From Kutzneria sp. 744 (lineage in GTDB: Bacteria > Actinomycetota > Actinomycetes > Mycobacteriales > Pseudonocardiaceae): a stretch of DNA of 64,000 nt. The first letter of the stretch is position 1, and each line of letters starts with the position of its first letter. The notes below the pieces were generated by a model, which did not search any database, was not told the DNA's origin, and worked only from the letters and a program-made list of their open reading frames with translations. Where the stretch lies: the NCBI RefSeq assembly GCF_000568255.1, contig NZ_KK037166.1, positions 7,822,810-7,886,809 of the forward strand, read 5' to 3'. Both the position numbers and the translations under genes were made by a program. Shown piece after piece: positions 46,486 through 56,952 of this stretch.

Positions 46486-46597
46486 GAGAAAGGGCGAGAC
46501 CCCCGTCCCAGAGGGGGGAGGTGGACGGGGGTCTCGCTAAACCCGCTACCGGGGGGAGGAGTAGCGGGGTGTCTGTGGTTGTCGGCGCCGCGTTCCG
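46486..46597 (-). ncRNA. 6C small RNA
   Basis: On the minus strand two successive hairpins each present a loop with six cytosines. Hairpin 1 has stem CCCGCTAC/GTAGCGGG (46561-46568 with 46542-46549) and loop TCCTCCCCCCG. Hairpin 2 has a perfect 14-bp stem CGAGACCCCCGTCC (46523-46536 with 46495-46508) and loop ACCTCCCCCCTCTG, followed by CCCTTTCT, a terminator-like tail. This is the hallmark of the actinobacterial 6C RNA (B11 in Mycobacterium), whose C-rich loops pair with G-rich ribosome binding sites. A possible -10 box TAACCT lies at 46604-46609. The 5' end is estimated. Confidence 0.9.
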
Positions 46598-46797: not shown

Positions 46798-49284
46798 TCA
46801 CACCGCCACCTTGTCGCCCGTGTTGTCACGCTGACGGGGGAGTGCCCGTTCCTGCTCGGCCGCCACGACCCCGTTCCACGCCAGCATCGCCCGTGCCGCC
46901 AGGCGTCCCGGCGTCGCGTCCACCGGCAGCCGGGCCAGCAGCTGGCCGGCGACCGGCGCGCCGTCGGCGTCGCGCAGCGGGAGATGGTGCGGGTCGGGCA
47001 GCATCTCCTCGAACACCAGGCCGGATTCCGGGTCGTCGGCAAGGAGTTTGTCCAGTGCCCGCACCGCGGACAGGCTGTCGAGGTCCACCGGCCGGGGCTG
47101 GTGTCCACCCTGCGAGCGGGCGAACACCCAGCGGGGGATGCCGGTGCCGATGCGCAGCGCGGCGACGGCTCGGATCCGTTCGCCGGGGGGAAGGTCGGCC
47201 GCGGGCAGTTGGTCGCGGGCGATGCGCCACTGGGCCCCGGACAGCACCAGTCCGCCGGCGAGAACCAAGCGTGGCAATCGATTGCGACCGGGCAACGCGG
47301 CCAGCGGGTTGCCCAGCGCCACCGGCCCGGCCAGGCGCCGCACGGGCGACGCGGCGGTCAGCAGGGTCACGAGTAAGCCCCAGGGCGCGAGCGGTGCTCG
47401 GGCCGAGTGGTACATCGGCCACAGCGCAAGGCCGTCCGGCCCGTCGGCGTCCTCGGCCACGATCCGGTCGCCGACGCGGCGCACGGTGATCCGGTCCAGC
47501 GCCAGATAACGCCCGCCGGCCGGCTGGTAGGCCGACGAATCGGCGTCGCCGGTCCACATCGGACAATATCGGGGCCGCCGCACCGCGCCCGCGGCCTGGG
47601 AGTCCTGCGGTGGCACCAGGATCTCCACCGTCTCGGCCCCACAACGCCGGCCGAGCTCGTCCAGAAACGTGCGATACGCCGTCACGTGGGGAAGTTCGCC
47701 GTGCAGATGTCGAAGCGCTTCGACGAACCGGGCGTCCACCACGCCGGCCGGCGCGGCGCCTTCCAGCACCGCCCCGTGACCGCCGCCGACGCCGATCGGC
47801 CGCACCAGGCAGTCGACCGGCCACGCCGGGGTGACGGCCGGCGGCGCGCCGATCTCGTCCAACTGCTGGGGCGTCACGGTGACCTGGTCCGCGTCGGTGT
47901 CGAGCAGACCCAACAGCCGCCCGTACGGAGTGTCCACATCGGACGGTGCCGCCGGCCAGCCGGGCCGCTGTCGGGGCAGGCCGCTGTCCCAGGCGTGCAG
48001 CGCCGGATCGCGGGAGTCCTCGTGCCGGCCGAGGAACTCGGCCAATACCTCGGTCACCGGCCGCGGCTGCGGGCCGACGAGCCGGAGGATCGGGTGCTCC
48101 GGCGTGGGAGGGGCGGCGTCGGCCAGCATCGCGCCGACCCGGCCGGCCTGGGCCAGCAGGCTTTGCAACCGCGAGGCGGCCTCGGTCGGCATGGTGCCGC
48201 CCGCCCGGCGGTACACGTCGACGAAGCCGGGCTTCGGCGGCGCGGCGGCGGTCGGCCCCCAGCCCGTCAGCTCGCTCGACGGCGGCGCGGACACGACCAG
48301 CACACCGAGCCCGGCCAGGTGCCGCAGGTAACCGCGCATCACGTCCGGGGCGTCGGCCGACAGCCGCATCACGAGCTCGTCGGCCTCGGACGAACCAGCC
48401 GACAGCGTGCGCCGGATCGCGTCCAGCGCGGGCGTGCGGCGGATCTTCACCCGCCGCATGGTGCCGCCGTCGACGGCGTCCACCACCCAGCAGCACAGGT
48501 GATCGCCGTCGATCCAGTTGAGTCCCGTGAGACTCACGGTCGCGCCGACGAGGTCCGGCAGCGCTCGGTCGCCCCGCGTTGCGGCGACGCGGTTGGCCGC
48601 GGACGCACCGAGGCTCGTCCATGCGCCGGCCCGCTGTCCGACGCCCAGCAGCGCCACGTGCCCGAGCCAGTCGCGGGGCGTGGGCTTCGCCGCACCGCGG
48701 GCCAGCACCCGCAGCAGGTAGTCGGACCGGTGCCGCAAACGCTTGCTGTCCCACGTCTCGCCGAACGACAGGCGGCGTCGGATGTCGTCCACCATGCCCG
48801 GGGCGGCCTCGGTGACCGCGCGCATCGCGAACTCCGACGAGTTCACCAGCCGCCACGGCAGATCGGACAGACGCTCACGTTCCGCCGCCAGGGCCTGCTC
48901 GGCCTCCGCCTGCCGGGCCACCATGGCGGTCGACCAGTCGCCGGCGTGGGTGAGGTCGTCGGCCAGCTCCGGCGACAGGCCCACGACGGCGCCGGCCACC
49001 CGGTAGCAGTCCTCCTCCGGCACCGGCTCACCGCGGTGCAGCAGCCGTCGCAGGGCCAGTAGCTCGGCCCGCTCCTCGGCTTCGAGGTACGGATGCGGCA
49101 CCAGCTCCGCGCCCAGCCGCTCGGCCAGGGTGTCGGCAAACCGTGCATACGAGGACTGCTCACACTGTCGTTCCCGTAGCTGGGTGAACAGCTCCGGGTT
49201 GCCGACCGCGGTCCACAGCCGGGCCGGCAGGCCGGCGACGCGCAGCAGGCCGCCCGCCCCGACGGTCAAGGCCTCATCCGCCAC
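46798..49284 (-). CDS. LanB-type dehydratase, glutamylation domain protein
   Basis: The protein starts at GTG 49284 and has 828 residues. It shows lantibiotic dehydratase N-terminal features: YLLRVLARGAAKPTPRDWLGHVALLGVG (parts: AKPTPRDWLGHVALLG), a central region with GEPVPEED-type helical stretches, YQPAGGRYLALDRITV, and the end block GTGIPRWVFARSQGGHQPRPVDLDSL, where LanB proteins have 'lPRwv..'. There is no SpaB_C elimination domain; that domain is encoded separately just upstream, overlapping by 11 bases. Such split enzymes occur in thiopeptide pathways; proteins with only this domain can also be peptide aminoacyl-tRNA ligases. No precursor peptide is visible. Confidence 0.85.
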   Translation of the reverse strand: MADEALTVGAGGLLRVAGLPARLWTAVGNPELFTQLRERQCEQSSYARFADTLAERLGAELVPHPYLEAEERAELLALRRLLHRGEPVPEEDCYRVAGAVVGLSPELADDLTHAGDWSTAMVARQAEAEQALAAERERLSDLPWRLVNSSEFAMRAVTEAAPGMVDDIRRRLSFGETWDSKRLRHRSDYLLRVLARGAAKPTPRDWLGHVALLGVGQRAGAWTSLGASAANRVAATRGDRALPDLVGATVSLTGLNWIDGDHLCCWVVDAVDGGTMRRVKIRRTPALDAIRRTLSAGSSEADELVMRLSADAPDVMRGYLRHLAGLGVLVVSAPPSSELTGWGPTAAAPPKPGFVDVYRRAGGTMPTEAASRLQSLLAQAGRVGAMLADAAPPTPEHPILRLVGPQPRPVTEVLAEFLGRHEDSRDPALHAWDSGLPRQRPGWPAAPSDVDTPYGRLLGLLDTDADQVTVTPQQLDEIGAPPAVTPAWPVDCLVRPIGVGGGHGAVLEGAAPAGVVDARFVEALRHLHGELPHVTAYRTFLDELGRRCGAETVEILVPPQDSQAAGAVRRPRYCPMWTGDADSSAYQPAGGRYLALDRITVRRVGDRIVAEDADGPDGLALWPMYHSARAPLAPWGLLVTLLTAASPVRRLAGPVALGNPLAALPGRNRLPRLVLAGGLVLSGAQWRIARDQLPAADLPPGERIRAVAALRIGTGIPRWVFARSQGGHQPRPVDLDSLSAVRALDKLLADDPESGLVFEEMLPDPHHLPLRDADGAPVAGQLLARLPVDATPGRLAARAMLAWNGVVAAEQERALPRQRDNTGDKVAV

Positions 49285-49903
49285 GGTGACCGACCAGGGA
49301 GTCCAGGATCCGCGCCTGCCGCGCCGACCCGAGCTTGGCTCGGTTCCAGTGCTGCACCACGTGGTACGCCACCGCCTCGCGCGGCCCGACCCGGGCCTGG
49401 TCGGTGTCGAAGTACTCGGCCCGCCACCGCTCCAGCACCGGCACGACCCGCTGGGCGTGCTGCTCCAGCAGCTCGCGGGTCGGCTCGGGCAGCCGTGACA
49501 GCAGCTCGTCCTCGCCCGTCCACCAGCCGGCCGGCTCGTCCGCGCCCGGTCCCGGCTCGCCGCCGACGATGTCCCGCACCCGTGCCCACACGTCGCGGTC
49601 CTCCCAGCCGGTGATCTGCAGGCCGTCGAACACGGCGCGCAGCATGCGCAGCGACACCACCCAGGAGGGCGTGTTGTCGCCGATGTCGCTGTGGTGGCGC
49701 AGCCAGAACACCGAGTCCACGGTGAACAGCTGATAGGCGTGCCGCATCGAGTCGGGCCCGCCGAACAGGTGCGCCTCCGGCTCGTACACGCCGGGCACCG
49801 CCTCGACCACCAGCCCGCGCCGCCGCCAGCGCGCGGCCAGCCGGCGCACCTCGGCCCGCACCGGGACGGCCCGGCCCGGCGCGGCCGGAACCGCACCCTC
49901 CTT
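49274..49903 (-). CDS. SpaB_C (thiopeptide-type bacteriocin biosynthesis) domain protein, 5' end lost
   Basis: The visible part (about 195-209 residues) carries VPGVYEPEAHLFGGPDSMRHAYQLFTVDS, seen as YEPEAHLFGG, the region where SpaB_C proteins have 'YxPExxRYGG...FhxDS', and ends LDSLVGHRGG. Family members have about 280-320 residues with an N-terminal part absent here. The frame stays open up to 49903, where the low-GC segment starts; GTG 49861 is only the first internal candidate. The domain performs glutamate elimination in lanthipeptide and thiopeptide dehydration, or [4+2] cyclisation in thiopeptides. It overlaps the LanB start. Confidence 0.75.
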   Translation of the reverse strand, partial: KEGAVPAAPGRAVPVRAEVRRLAARWRRRGLVVEAVPGVYEPEAHLFGGPDSMRHAYQLFTVDSVFWLRHHSDIGDNTPSWVVSLRMLRAVFDGLQITGWEDRDVWARVRDIVGGEPGPGADEPAGWWTGEDELLSRLPEPTRELLEQHAQRVVPVLERWRAEYFDTDQARVGPREAVAYHVVQHWNRAKLGSARQARILDSLVGHRGG

Positions 49904-50556
49904 TATACAATGTGTCGCAGAAGTGAATATCCGAGGGTCGCAGCTCCTATAACCGGTAGGAAGACTATCATTAATTACTTCGCGCGACTCTAGTTCCTAC
50001 TGTATCAAAACGATGAGGCGGTAACACTTCCGGCAGCTGCAGTTATGTACGCCTTGATCATTGTAATTGACACACAGACGTGCTGTAATCCTTCTACTCG
50101 GCGCCAGTAGAATCGGTTGTCAAGTTTTATTATCGCATGTTGCACGTTCCTTAAGTGTTTTCGGCGGAATCGAGACCCACAGAACTTGTGCCTTTACGGC
50201 GGCGCGCTACCTCAAGTCCCGCCGCCGTTTATCGCCCTCATAGGATACGTATTTACCGTTCCGTACTATCCATTCGAACTAAGCCCGGACAGCATTCGGG
50301 CGGAGACAAAAGGCGTAACGTTGCTAAGAATCTCGCAAACGGTGACCCACTCACCAATGGACGCCGCGCCCTCCAGAAGGACATCCGCGAATATTGATCG
50401 TTGGAAACTAGCTGATGCATTATCTTACACTAGCGGATTCATATAGGGCATCATACTGCTTCCTAGTGGTCAGCACAGGTTAATTCTTTTCTAGTCATCC
50501 ATTCAGGAGGGTAGTAGTCTGGTGGAAGGCCTTCGTTTCGCTTTAAGGAGTTATGG
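49904..50556. other. Anomalous approximately 50%-GC, non-coding segment
   Basis: Between CCGCACCCTCC and ATGGCCCGGTGG the composition falls abruptly from above 70% to about 50% GC, with all four bases near equal and no codon bias. Stops are dense in all frames; the only longer ORF (50117-50446, 109 codons) has no ribosome site or recognisable sequence. I see no repeats, terminal inverted repeats, target duplication or RNA-like hairpin. Both flanking genes are truncated at its borders. It looks like random filler for an assembly gap; true foreign DNA is less likely. Confidence 0.7.
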
Positions 50557-51217
50557 CCCGGTGGCCGGCCGCCTCGTCCGGCCCCAGCCCCGCGCCCAGC
50601 CAGTCGGCGACCTCCTCGAACGGGATGCCGACCCGCCACCACTCGCGCAGCTCCGCCACCGGGCGGCGGCCCGACCGGGCCAGCTCGCCGCCCTCGGCCG
50701 CGGTCAGGCCCAGCTCGCGCCAGCCCATCGCGTCCGCCGCGTCCACGCCCTGCCGGGCCCACTCCAGGGCCGCGTCGTCCAGCCACTGCCGCAGCAGGTA
50801 CGAGCTGAGCACCGGCCCCGCCACGCCCGCCTCGCGCCAGCGGTGCACCACCTCGATGTCCGCCGGGTCGTCGGTGCCGTGCGTGCGCTGCGACCACGCC
50901 TGCTCCGGCGTGATCCCGCGCGCCCGGAACTCCGCCGCCGCCCGCAGGCCGACACCGAACTCGTGCCAGCGCACCGCGTCCGCCGGGCTGATGCCCGCGT
51001 CCCGCCAGCCCGCCACCGTGCTCGGCGTGACGCCCGCGATCGCCCACTGCGCCGCCGTCAGCCCCGTCGTCACGCCGGCCGAGATCCAGGCCCGCGCGGT
51101 GGACACCGTGAACCCCCAACGGCGCCAGACAGCGGCTTCCCCCCGGGCGAACCCCGCGTTCACCCAGGCGTTGAGGTCTTCCGGTCGAGGCTCCACAGCA
51201 GTCCCATCATCCCCCAC
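50543..51217 (-). CDS. Tryptophan-glycine helical-repeat protein, 3' end probably lost
   Basis: The frame from GTG 51217 has 224 codons. The protein is built of about a dozen units of roughly 13 residues with the pattern W-x3-G-[VIF]-x-x-x-x-A: WAIAGVTPSTVAG, WRDAGISPADAVR, WHEFGVGLRAAAE. Each unit probably forms a short helix pair in a solenoid. There is no signal peptide or catalytic motif. The last normal residues (GLGPDEAAGHRA) are followed by three codons and a stop inside the low-GC segment, so the real C-terminus is missing. Function unknown; a binding scaffold is likely. Confidence 0.6.
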   Translation of the reverse strand: MGDDGTAVEPRPEDLNAWVNAGFARGEAAVWRRWGFTVSTARAWISAGVTTGLTAAQWAIAGVTPSTVAGWRDAGISPADAVRWHEFGVGLRAAAEFRARGITPEQAWSQRTHGTDDPADIEVVHRWREAGVAGPVLSSYLLRQWLDDAALEWARQGVDAADAMGWRELGLTAAEGGELARSGRRPVAELREWWRVGIPFEEVADWLGAGLGPDEAAGHRAITP

Positions 51218-51353: not shown

Positions 51354-51803
51354 TCAGGAGTTCTGCTGCTTGATCGCGTCGATCGCCGACGTGGCGACGG
51401 TCTCCGCCGAAGCGCAGGCGCCGTCTCCCTTCGTGTTGGCCATGATTCGCTGCTTGTCCCCGACAACCACCCAAACGGTGCAGCTGCCCTGGCCGCCGAC
51501 CTCGTAGCCCGGATAGCCGTCGACCGTCTTCTGGTCGCCGCCCTTGGGCGCCGGCGCGTCGAGCTCCACATGGAACAGGATGTTCGAGCCGTTCGAATCC
51601 TTCGGATACAGCTGGCAGACGCCCACGTTCGGCGGCGTGGGACGGGGGAACGTCCGGCCGACGCCCAGGCTCGACAGCTGGTCCGCGCCGAACATCGAGC
51701 ACGGCTTGTCCACATAGGGCTTCAGGTTCAGGTCGGCCGCCTGGGCCGACGAGCAGCCGGCCAGGGCAAGGGTCGCTAGCCCGAACAGCAGGACTCGGCT
51801 CAC
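51354..51803 (-). CDS. DUF3558-type lipoprotein
   Basis: From GTG 51803 the 149-residue precursor has lipobox LALAGCSSA. The mature domain has two cysteines (KPCSMFGADQLSSLGVG and VGVCQLYP, then GSCTVWVVVGD), VDGYPGYEV, and the ending AETVATSAIDAIKQQNS. These match DUF3558 domains, which are abundant in Pseudonocardiaceae and found in mycobacterial lipoproteins. Its start overlaps the stop of the PPOX-fold gene (GTGA). Role unknown, extracellular. Confidence 0.85.
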   Translation of the reverse strand: MSRVLLFGLATLALAGCSSAQAADLNLKPYVDKPCSMFGADQLSSLGVGRTFPRPTPPNVGVCQLYPKDSNGSNILFHVELDAPAPKGGDQKTVDGYPGYEVGGQGSCTVWVVVGDKQRIMANTKGDGACASAETVATSAIDAIKQQNS

Positions 51804-52282
51804 GCGCGCCACGCCGCCGCCTTCTTGCCGGTGGCCAGCTGCTCGCCGGTCAGCACGCGGACCCGCCACGGATCCAGCCGGAGCACGGAGAACGCAGGTG
51901 AGGAGGGCCCGTCCCAGCCCGGCACGCCGATGCCGCCGGGGTCGTAGCCCAGCGGCTCGGGGGCGTCGGCGAACAGGTGCCAGACCCGCTCCTTGACCGC
52001 CGGGTCCTGCTCCCAGGTGGCCCGGCATTCCGCCAGACAGGTGTCGTGGTTCTGCGCCCAGTAGTTGCACGCCGTGAACGCGCTGTGCTCGAGTTGAGCC
52101 TTCTTCGGTCCCGCCTGCATGGTGGCGATCCAGCCGGTCAGGCGGGCGCCGTCCCACTCCCAGAACGGGTGCAGCACGCGGGAGCGGGGCCGGTTGGCGA
52201 CGTCCACGGTCGACACCGTGCACCACACGATCCGGTGAGCCATCTCCACGAATGCGGGTGCGATCTCACTGAGCGCAAGCAT
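51800..52282 (-). CDS. Pyridoxamine 5'-phosphate oxidase-fold protein
   Basis: The 160-residue protein has the split-barrel opening MAHRIVWCTVSTVDVANRPRSRVLHPFWEWDG, seen as VWCTVSTVDVANRPRSRVLHP, where the family has 'atvdpdGrPrsrpv'. Then come GWIATMQAGPKKAQLEHS and RLDPWRVRVLTGEQL. It probably binds FMN, F420 or heme and reduces small molecules. First gene of a unit with the DUF3558 lipoprotein. It diverges from bfaA across 127 bp. Confidence 0.85.
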   Translation of the reverse strand: MLALSEIAPAFVEMAHRIVWCTVSTVDVANRPRSRVLHPFWEWDGARLTGWIATMQAGPKKAQLEHSAFTACNYWAQNHDTCLAECRATWEQDPAVKERVWHLFADAPEPLGYDPGGIGVPGWDGPSSPAFSVLRLDPWRVRVLTGEQLATGKKAAAWRA

Positions 52283-53826: not shown

Positions 53827-55065
53827 ATGCGGCTAGCGGAGCTGTTCAGCCGGACGCTCAAGGCGGACAAGATCGAGTTCGTCGGCTACGACGGCAGCCG
53901 GTCGGGCCCGGCCGACGCCGAGGTCCGCATCGAGATCAGGTCCCCGTTCGCGCTGTCCTACCTGTCGCGCTATCGCACCGCTTAGGCTGGCGAGGGGTAC
54001 GTCACCGGGCACCTCGAGGTGGTCGGCGACCTGTACAAGACGTTCCACATGCTCGGCGACATCGAGCTGGGCAAGCTGGACCCCAAGACCACCGTGGAAC
54101 TGGTCGCGCTGCTGGCCAAGCACCGGTTCTGGTGGCCGGTCAGCCCGCCGCCGCACGAGGCGCGGCCCAAGGGCTGGCGGCACTCCAAGAGCCGCGACGC
54201 GCAGGCCATCTCCCACCACTACGACGTGTCCAACCGGTTCTACGAGTGGGTGCTCGGGCCGTCCATGGCCTACACCTGCGCCGTCTACCCGACCGACGAC
54301 GCCTCGCTGGAGACCGCCCAGTTCACCAAGCACGACCTGGTCGCCCGCAAGCTCGGCCTGACCGAGGGCATGCGGCTGCTCGACGTCGGCTGCGGCTGGG
54401 GCGGCATGGTCATGCACGCCGCCGAGCACTACGGTGTCAAGGCCCTGGGCGTCACCCTGTCCCGGTCGCAGGCCGAGTGGGCGCAGAAGGCCATCGTCGA
54501 GCGGGGCCTGCAGGACCTGGCCGAGGTCCGGTTCATGGACTACCGCGACGTGCCCGAGAGCGGCTTCGACGCGATCAGCTCCATCGGCCTGACCGAGCAC
54601 ATCGGCGCGGCCAACCTGCCCTCGTACTTCACCAGCCTGTACGAGAAGCTCCGCCCGGGCGGCCGCCTGCTCAACCACTGCATCACCCGGCCCAGCGACG
54701 ACTTCCCGTTCAAGGCCGGCGGTTTCATCACCCGCTACATCTTCCCGGACGGCGAGCTCGAAGGCCCCGGCTACCTGATGTCGCGGATGAACGACGCCGG
54801 CTTCGAGGTGCGGCACTCCGAGAACATCCGCGAGCACTACGCCAAGACCCTCGGCGGCTGGTGCGACAACCTCACCGAGCACTGGGACGAGGCCGTCGAG
54901 GAGGTCGGGCTGCCCAAGGCCCGCATCTGGCGCCTCTACCTGGCCGCCTGCCAGTGGGGCTTCGACATCAACAACATCCAGCTGCACCAGATCCTCGGCG
55001 TGAAGCTGGACGGCACCGCCTCGCACATGCCCCTCCGCCCCAACTGGGAACCGCCCCAGTCCTGA
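53827..55065 (+). CDS. bfaB: SAM-dependent fatty acid methyltransferase, interrupted near 53983
   Basis: From ATG 53827 the frame is 413 codons with TAG at 53983-53985. After it the cyclopropane-synthase-type enzyme is intact: SRDAQAISHHYDVSNRFYEWVLGPSMAYTCA (parts: HHYDVSNRFYEWVLG), the SAM site LLDVGCGWGGMVMHAAEHYGV, SIGLTEHIG. Near the stop a neighbouring frame reads APLRLARG and rejoins YVTGHLEVVGDLY, matching the family's 'LGLARAYVxGDLEV'. One base too many near 53961-53968 and one G too few at 53994-53997 would restore everything. So paired indels explain it better than a nonsense mutation. It methylates C10 of oleoyl chains. Confidence 0.8.
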
Positions 55066-56094: not shown

Positions 56095-56952
56095 ATGATC
56101 GATGTGCCGGACGCTTTCGCCCAGGCCACGGCGCTGCGTGAGGGCGAGGCCGGCCGGTCGTGGCTGCGTTCGCTGCCGGCCATCGTCGACGAGCTGCTGC
56201 AACGCTGGTCATGCGTGCCGGCCGGATCGATCAAGCACGGCGCCGTCGGGATCGTGCTGCCGGTGCGCCGCGGCGACCTGGCCGCCGTGATCAAGGTGTC
56301 CTTTCCGCATCCCGGCAACGTCGACCAGCCCGCCGCGTTCGCCGCCTGGCGCGGCCGTGGCGCCGTCCGCCTGCACGAGCGTGACGACGCGCGGTTCGCG
56401 ATGCTGCTGGAGCGGGCCGGGCCCGGCACCCTGGCCGAGGTGGCCGACGACGACCGGGCCGTCGGCATTCTGGGCGAATTGTCCCGGCGATTGGCCGTCC
56501 CCGCGCCGCCCGGGCTGCCGCGGATCCGGGACGAGGTCGCCGGCTGGGAGGCGGAGATACTCGCGGCCGGGTCGCTGCCGCCACGCGTCGTGGACGCCGC
56601 CGTCGCCGCCCTGCGTGAACTCGACCACCCCGAAACCGTTGTGCACGGGGATCTGCACGATACCAACGTGCTGGCCGCCGAGCGTGAACCGTGGCTGGCC
56701 ATCGATCCCAAGGGCCTGGTCGGCGATCCCGCCTACGACGCCTTCACGGTGATCCACAGCCCGCGCCTACTGCTCACATCCGGCCACCTGCGCGCGTTGG
56801 ACATCTTCTGCGAGGCCGCCGGGATCGATCGGGAGCGGGCGCGGCGCTGGGCGCTGGTCCGCACTGTCCGATCGGTGCTGTGGGATCGGCGGCACGGACC
56901 ATCCTGGCTGGTCGAGGCCGGTCACCGTCTCATCGCAACACTGCTCGACTGA
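56095..56952 (+). CDS. Aminoglycoside/hydroxyurea phosphotransferase-family kinase
   Basis: The 285-residue protein has the phosphotransferase catalytic loop TVVHGDLHDTNVLAA (Asp in HGDLH, Asn in TN) and the metal site LAIDPKGLVGDPAYDAFTV, which is the wording of the APH(6)/hydroxyurea kinase family. The N-lobe has GIVLPV... AAVIKVSFPHPGN with the ATP lysine. It could inactivate streptomycin-like compounds or act on another hydroxyl substrate. Monocistronic. Confidence 0.85.
   Translation: MIDVPDAFAQATALREGEAGRSWLRSLPAIVDELLQRWSCVPAGSIKHGAVGIVLPVRRGDLAAVIKVSFPHPGNVDQPAAFAAWRGRGAVRLHERDDARFAMLLERAGPGTLAEVADDDRAVGILGELSRRLAVPAPPGLPRIRDEVAGWEAEILAAGSLPPRVVDAAVAALRELDHPETVVHGDLHDTNVLAAEREPWLAIDPKGLVGDPAYDAFTVIHSPRLLLTSGHLRALDIFCEAAGIDRERARRWALVRTVRSVLWDRRHGPSWLVEAGHRLIATLLD

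Follow-up and report, generated by a model that had tools for sequence, protein, structure and literature searches.

We analyzed a 64,000-nt window of the Kutzneria sp. 744 genome (11.65 Mb; contig NZ_KK037166.1, positions 7822810-7886809 of the forward strand) and found that a split LanB dehydratase encoded there, composed of a glutamyl transferase (LanB) and a separate glutamyl-lyase-like protein (SpaB_C), stands at a reduced locus: the precursor gene and the LanC cyclase gene are gone, and both enzyme genes are open (the start of SpaB_C is unreadable in this genome). The pair descends from class I lanthipeptide operons of the SapT type, with a split LanB and a lyase of the syn-lyase family, and not from thiopeptide clusters. 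As a tentative account, which we hold with slightly less than even confidence, the pair may have been repurposed, LanB still acting as a tRNA-dependent aminoacyl transferase and its lyase-like partner working without Lys-dependent glutamate elimination. A preliminary description of the window had reported the split LanB overlapping SpaB_C, with a tryptophan-repeat (W-repeat) protein gene upstream on the same strand across a damaged segment, and had read the region as an incomplete locus for a ribosomally synthesized and post-translationally modified peptide (RiPP). These observations were confirmed, and the overall interpretation was supported in part: the split LanB, the incomplete locus and the damaged bases stood, and the suggestions of a precursor in the gap and of a thiopeptide likeness did not.

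Descent from SapT-type lanthipeptide operons

LanB was present in all seven Kutzneria genomes searched and had matches, some weak or partial, in 17 of 100 genomes, its own included. A scan with one genome per species yielded 30 loci, 28 of which had a LanB call (L121 from Loktanella and L122 were dropped for want of one); these came from Kutzneria, Actinophytocola, Actinokineospora, Saccharothrix, Amycolatopsis, Streptoalloteichus, Longimycelium and Streptomyces. SpaB_C lay directly upstream and LanC downstream of LanB at 22 of the 28 loci (two of them being the Kutzneria paralogue, locus B, described below), and at 21 of these 22 LanB was followed by a short precursor whose leader they have in common. 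The precursor of the Streptomyces locus L111 ends in what we take to be the SapT core. LanB without LanC was also seen in a Kutzneria metagenome-assembled genome (MAG; L096), in Amycolatopsis deserti (L104) and in Saccharothrix sp. ALI-22-I (L118), and L096 and L118 likewise lacked SpaB_C beside LanB; at L106 the contig ends 353 bp past LanB, and neither SpaB_C nor LanC is in its available DNA.

The preliminary description had suggested that this may be a reduced or atypical pathway, a reading that a close genome with the pair in a complete, known thiopeptide or lanthipeptide cluster would refute. K. viridogrisea is such a genome: at the orthologous chromosomal site it has a complete lanthipeptide operon (SpaB_C, LanB, precursor, LanC), flanked by the same W-repeat and oxidoreductase neighbours as the window locus. 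Because the relatives carry SpaB_C, LanB, a leader-bearing precursor and LanC, as the SapT system does, we assign the pair to the SapT type by descent. In the biosynthesis of SapT, a split LanB (SptBa and SptBb) acts together with SptC, and the operon in Streptomyces (SptA, SptBa, SptBb, SptC) likewise separates the glutamyl transferase from the glutamyl lyase (PMC9011353). Those relatives of the window pair that have complete operons bear the syn-lyase marks (Lys for the Tyr of NisB, and mostly Leu for NisB Arg826), whereas the window locus has neither precursor nor cyclase and the lyases of its sister genomes have Gly instead of Lys. In the accessible part of the SapT study, which used the SptA sequence as query, homologous clusters were reported in Streptomyces only (PMC9011353); our survey adds complete SapT-like operons in genera of Pseudonocardiaceae. 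Class I lanthipeptide clusters were found in Kutzneria by antiSMASH, in a report whose accessible part does not mention the window locus (PMC10232511), and neither an orphan split LanB nor a syn-lyase lacking the Lys turned up among the open-licence papers searched.

LanB has a predicted fold of the TbtB/NisB type that covers the entire glutamylation domain, as a stand-alone glutamyl transferase, and the gene beside it, whose N-terminus is unreadable, encodes a separate lyase matching PF14028 and TIGR03891. A profile of the 28-row LanB alignment retrieved TbtB from the PDB sequences (E=8.5e-14) together with one chance match; a 14-row profile gave no match at E<=0.01. The thiopeptide likeness was not upheld: in contrast to the TbtB/TbtC system of thiomuracin, no YcaO was found within 1.4 Mb of the pair (the genome has four YcaO matches, the closest about 1.45 Mb away), and the relatives have LanC and short lanthipeptide precursors. 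Elsewhere on the contig, outside the window (4461945-4469276), a 693-aa frame matches PF14028 twice and lies near two YcaO matches, and the double match recurs in G001, G002, G006 and K. viridogrisea (G004; 691 aa).

Loss of precursor and cyclase

We compared the window locus (locus A) with those of four sister genomes, G001 (K. buriramensis), G002, G005 and G006 (Kutzneria sp. CA-103260), and found neither a precursor nor LanC behind LanB in any of these five orphan genomes. LanB was open in all five, and SpaB_C in the four in which it is readable. No precursor with an LxDLDxLIxxLExR-like leader and no LanC were seen in the window operon, such a precursor being found at locus B. In each orphan genome, the single precursor-like match at E<0.3, and every LanC match at E<1e-20 when the K. 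viridogrisea LanC served as query, fell at locus B; every orphan genome also gave weaker hits resembling precursors (E>0.3 throughout), which were not counted, and the genome of Kutzneria sp. 744 holds seven PF05147 matches, i.e. more distant LanC-like domains elsewhere. A 32-aa frame without Cys follows LanB in the window and at L036, L037 and L038 and is absent at L039; it was not taken as a gene, because the region shows general DNA conservation with drift. Among ten scanned flanking proteins of the window no RiPP enzyme was found, all having ordinary Pfam domains.

The preliminary description had suggested that a precursor could lie in the missing bases. The DNA identity of 85-93% to the four sisters breaks off at position 49898 and returns at 50554, and the 655 bp between are statistically like uniform random letters; a homology search of this stretch returned nothing beyond one short weak match. 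It is an artefact of the record, or a stretch of withheld bases, and not biology. In the sisters, the corresponding 480-530 bp consist of the last ~25 codons of the W-repeat gene, an intergenic interval of ~110-160 bp and the start of SpaB_C. Three-frame translation on the operon strand revealed no evident shared precursor frame in this interval in five Kutzneria relatives; a 17-aa frame was considered and rejected, since only two of the five have one. That the RiPP locus is complete, with its precursor in the gap, is thus hardly credible: the stretch is indeed unreadable in this genome, but the relatives show only the three elements named above, and LanC is missing as well.

Selection and possible present role

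We estimated the ratio of nonsynonymous to synonymous substitution rates (dN/dS) within the clade of five genomes. The values were 0.14 for both LanB and the W-repeat gene, 0.18 for the oxidoreductase neighbour and 0.74 for the DUF3558 lipoprotein gene; SpaB_C gave 0.24 for the four full genes and 0.30 when the partial piece from the window was included. In a neutral simulation, LanB would gain 6.8 stops per lineage, with none of 200 copies intact, and SpaB_C 2.2 stops, with 10% of 200 copies intact. Selection seems to keep the pair. A functionless relic in slow decay would fit the loss of the precursor, of LanC and, in the sisters, of the lyase Lys, as well as the LanB without SpaB_C or LanC in the Kutzneria MAG, the LanC-less relatives in Saccharothrix and Amycolatopsis, and the dN/dS of 0.36-0.49 against K. 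viridogrisea; the open reading frames, the low dN/dS within the clade and the stops predicted under neutrality make such a relic improbable.

At the position of the anti-lyase Tyr, syn-lyases carry Lys, and NisB Arg826 is replaced in them by a hydrophobic residue; this Lys matters for elimination (PMC9486935; PMC9011353), and glutamylated intermediates accumulate with CoiSA(ED)-K46A (PMC9011353). With the Lys/Tyr register of the SpaB_C alignment taken from the match to MadB, the column reads Lys in all 23 non-orphan sequences that have a residue at this position and Gly in all four sister orphans. These counts omit L107 (removed when coordinates were filtered, although its genome encodes a lyase with Lys) and L096, L106 and L118, which have no SpaB_C, and treat Amycolatopsis deserti as a gap. 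At the position of NisB Arg826, the window and the four other orphans have Leu, a hydrophobic residue, as do 20 of the 23 others (Arg in two, Lys in one). A derived Gln before HWNR (VVQHWNR) is readable in the SpaB_C of the window and is common to the other orphans.

For open and constrained enzyme genes found without a local substrate, a cyclase or, in the sisters, the lyase Lys, the simplest account is a changed role, in which tRNA-dependent aminoacylation would no longer lead to a lanthipeptide. LanB would use an aminoacyl-tRNA, the donor being putatively glutamyl-tRNA as in its family, to attach the amino acid to hydroxyl groups of a substrate whose gene lies elsewhere; the lyase-like partner might leave the glutamate in place, act by another mechanism, or serve as a binding or regulatory partner. 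A more specific version, in which the exapted pair stably glutamylates a peptide or protein outside RiPP clusters with the former lyase as a non-eliminating partner, is conceivable but rather unlikely. A conserved pair lacking precursor, cyclase and, in the sisters, the lyase Lys offers a natural case for testing the loss of elimination.

Several observations weigh against repurposing. No substrate was found for the pair. The dN/dS values against K. viridogrisea are higher (0.36-0.39 for LanB, 0.39-0.49 for SpaB_C, 0.46-0.57 for the W-repeat gene and 0.22-0.33 for the oxidoreductase), and therefore some relaxation of selection on the pair is possible; the method is also crude (Nei-Gojobori on GC-rich genomes, with non-independent pairs). 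The Lys position of the window itself falls inside the artefact stretch, so its loss there is inferred from the four sisters. Changed conserved columns speak for repurposing in that the orphan LanB has about as many (11/138) as that of K. viridogrisea (9/142; 13/138 at locus B, 21/138 in the MAG) and the orphan lyase has more (6/42 against 2/40); the lyase excess is small, however, as locus B, with its Lys kept, changes 4/42. Finally, all five genomes also carry locus B, complete with a precursor and LanC, and the pair may accordingly still serve lanthipeptide synthesis.

Locus B lies at ~3.556 Mb of the same genome and comprises SpaB_C, LanB, precursor and LanC; in four of the five genomes it also has an ABC-ATPase-like gene (identified by eye) and a second neighbour, DUF6297 in Kutzneria sp. 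744. Trees of LanB and of SpaB_C place it as the sister of the A group, with support of 98/95, 97/93 and 96/93, as after an old duplication. In the genome G002 (L051), the locus B LanB is spread over two frames and a TAG interrupts the precursor reading frame, locus A being open; an assembly error is possible. The main rival to repurposing is action in trans, in which the pair dehydrates, or helps dehydrate, the locus B precursor. This would agree with the occurrence of locus B in all five orphan genomes and its absence from the searches of K. viridogrisea and the Kutzneria MAG (93% complete), with the similarity of its precursor cores (APDSAICSL...) to the A-locus precursor of K. viridogrisea, with a LanB ~120 aa shorter than that of locus A, and with the interrupted genes of G002, assembly errors permitting. 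We nevertheless consider it somewhat unlikely: locus B has a pair of its own with the lyase Lys kept, its four intact copies have a dN/dS of 0.24 for LanB and 0.29 for SpaB_C, the A lyase lacks Lys in four sisters, and the locus B precursor of G002 carries a stop, yet its locus A is open.

We also weighed ligation of aminoacyl-tRNA to a peptide, as in peptide aminoacyl-tRNA ligases (PEARLs). It has been proposed that PEARLs, split LanBs and full LanBs mark stages in the evolution of a single line of tRNA-dependent enzymes (PMC11117183). The PEARLs TglB, BhaB and AmmB are likewise LanB-like and tRNA-dependent (PMC11117183), and LanB here stands without precursor and LanC beside a lyase whose function was probably lost in the sisters. 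However, PEARLs wholly lack an elimination domain (PMC11117183), whereas the window pair keeps a lyase-like partner overlapping LanB; moreover, LanB groups with lanthipeptide split LanBs, in trees that included no PEARL, and no scaffold peptide was found. The PEARL-specific residues are Asp542 and Arg803 in TglB numbering (PMC11117183), and the alignment of LanB with TbtB does not extend reliably to their site. A PEARL-type activity of the pair is, on this evidence, very unlikely.

Neighbouring genes and other features of the window

The features of the locus are summarized in Table 1. On the minus strand, the order is a 160-aa protein, the DUF3558 lipoprotein, the W-repeat frame, SpaB_C and LanB; the 3' end of SpaB_C overlaps the start of LanB by 11 bases, and, judged from the relatives, its first ~100-115 codons are lost to the artefact stretch. 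The hairpin sequence 3' of LanB is kept in all five orphan genomes.

Table 1. Coordinates of features at the reduced locus (window positions)
Feature	Position	Strand	Remarks
Two hairpins downstream of LanB, terminator-like, no T-run	46494..46568	-	z -6.8
LanB glutamyl transferase, 828 aa, orthologue of the spt-type split-dehydratase large subunit	46798..49284	-	reading frame intact
SpaB_C (glutamyl-lyase-like), readable part	49274..49898	-	PF14028, TIGR03891, alignments; frame visible at 49274-49861
Artefact stretch, 655 bp, uniform-random-like	49899..50553	.	in place of 480-530 bp in relatives
W-repeat protein gene	50554..51217	-	13-residue helical repeats; ~25 final codons lost to artefact stretch
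DUF3558 lipoprotein, upstream neighbour	51357..51815	-	PF12079; dN/dS 0.74; fast-evolving, not counted into the system

The W-repeat protein adjoins the pair in six of seven Kutzneria genomes. Its predicted fold, a chain of 13-residue helical repeats, is of moderate confidence (pLDDT 74, pTM 0.43, four sequences), and the model resembled designed helical toroids most closely, with no match reaching E<=0.001. Among 14 loci outside Kutzneria (at one of which, L135, the W-repeat protein itself was not matched again), DUF2201 lay beside the W-repeat gene in ten and MoxR as well in eight, and neither LanB nor SpaB_C was found beside it at any, although the flanks were only ~1.5 kb or less at 11 of the 14. 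A role of this protein as RiPP partner or substrate, and with it the earlier inclusion of its gene in the RiPP locus, is thus weakened, and it is probably an unrelated neighbour; its retention beside the pair in Kutzneria makes a link possible, but does not need one. The trio of MoxR ATPase, DUF2201 metallopeptidase/VWA and W-repeat protein was seen in other actinobacteria at L091-L093, L125, L126, L128, L132 and L133.

Further observations concern the rest of the window. A recurrent intergenic palindromic element (MQGRTPYPR / NEGKASFPA, in several frames) occurs at 44.9-45.1 kb and 55.07-55.13 kb, and parts of it match the loci of relatives on both strands. A cyclopropane-synthase-like methyltransferase gene at 53827-55065 is interrupted by an in-frame stop at ~53985 and forms a single open 414-aa frame in four sister genomes; together with an upstream FAD oxidoreductase it resembles what we presume to be a methyl-branched fatty acid pair. 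The gene product of 56095-56952 falls into the aminoglycoside/hydroxyurea kinase family (PF04655, E=1.1e-35).

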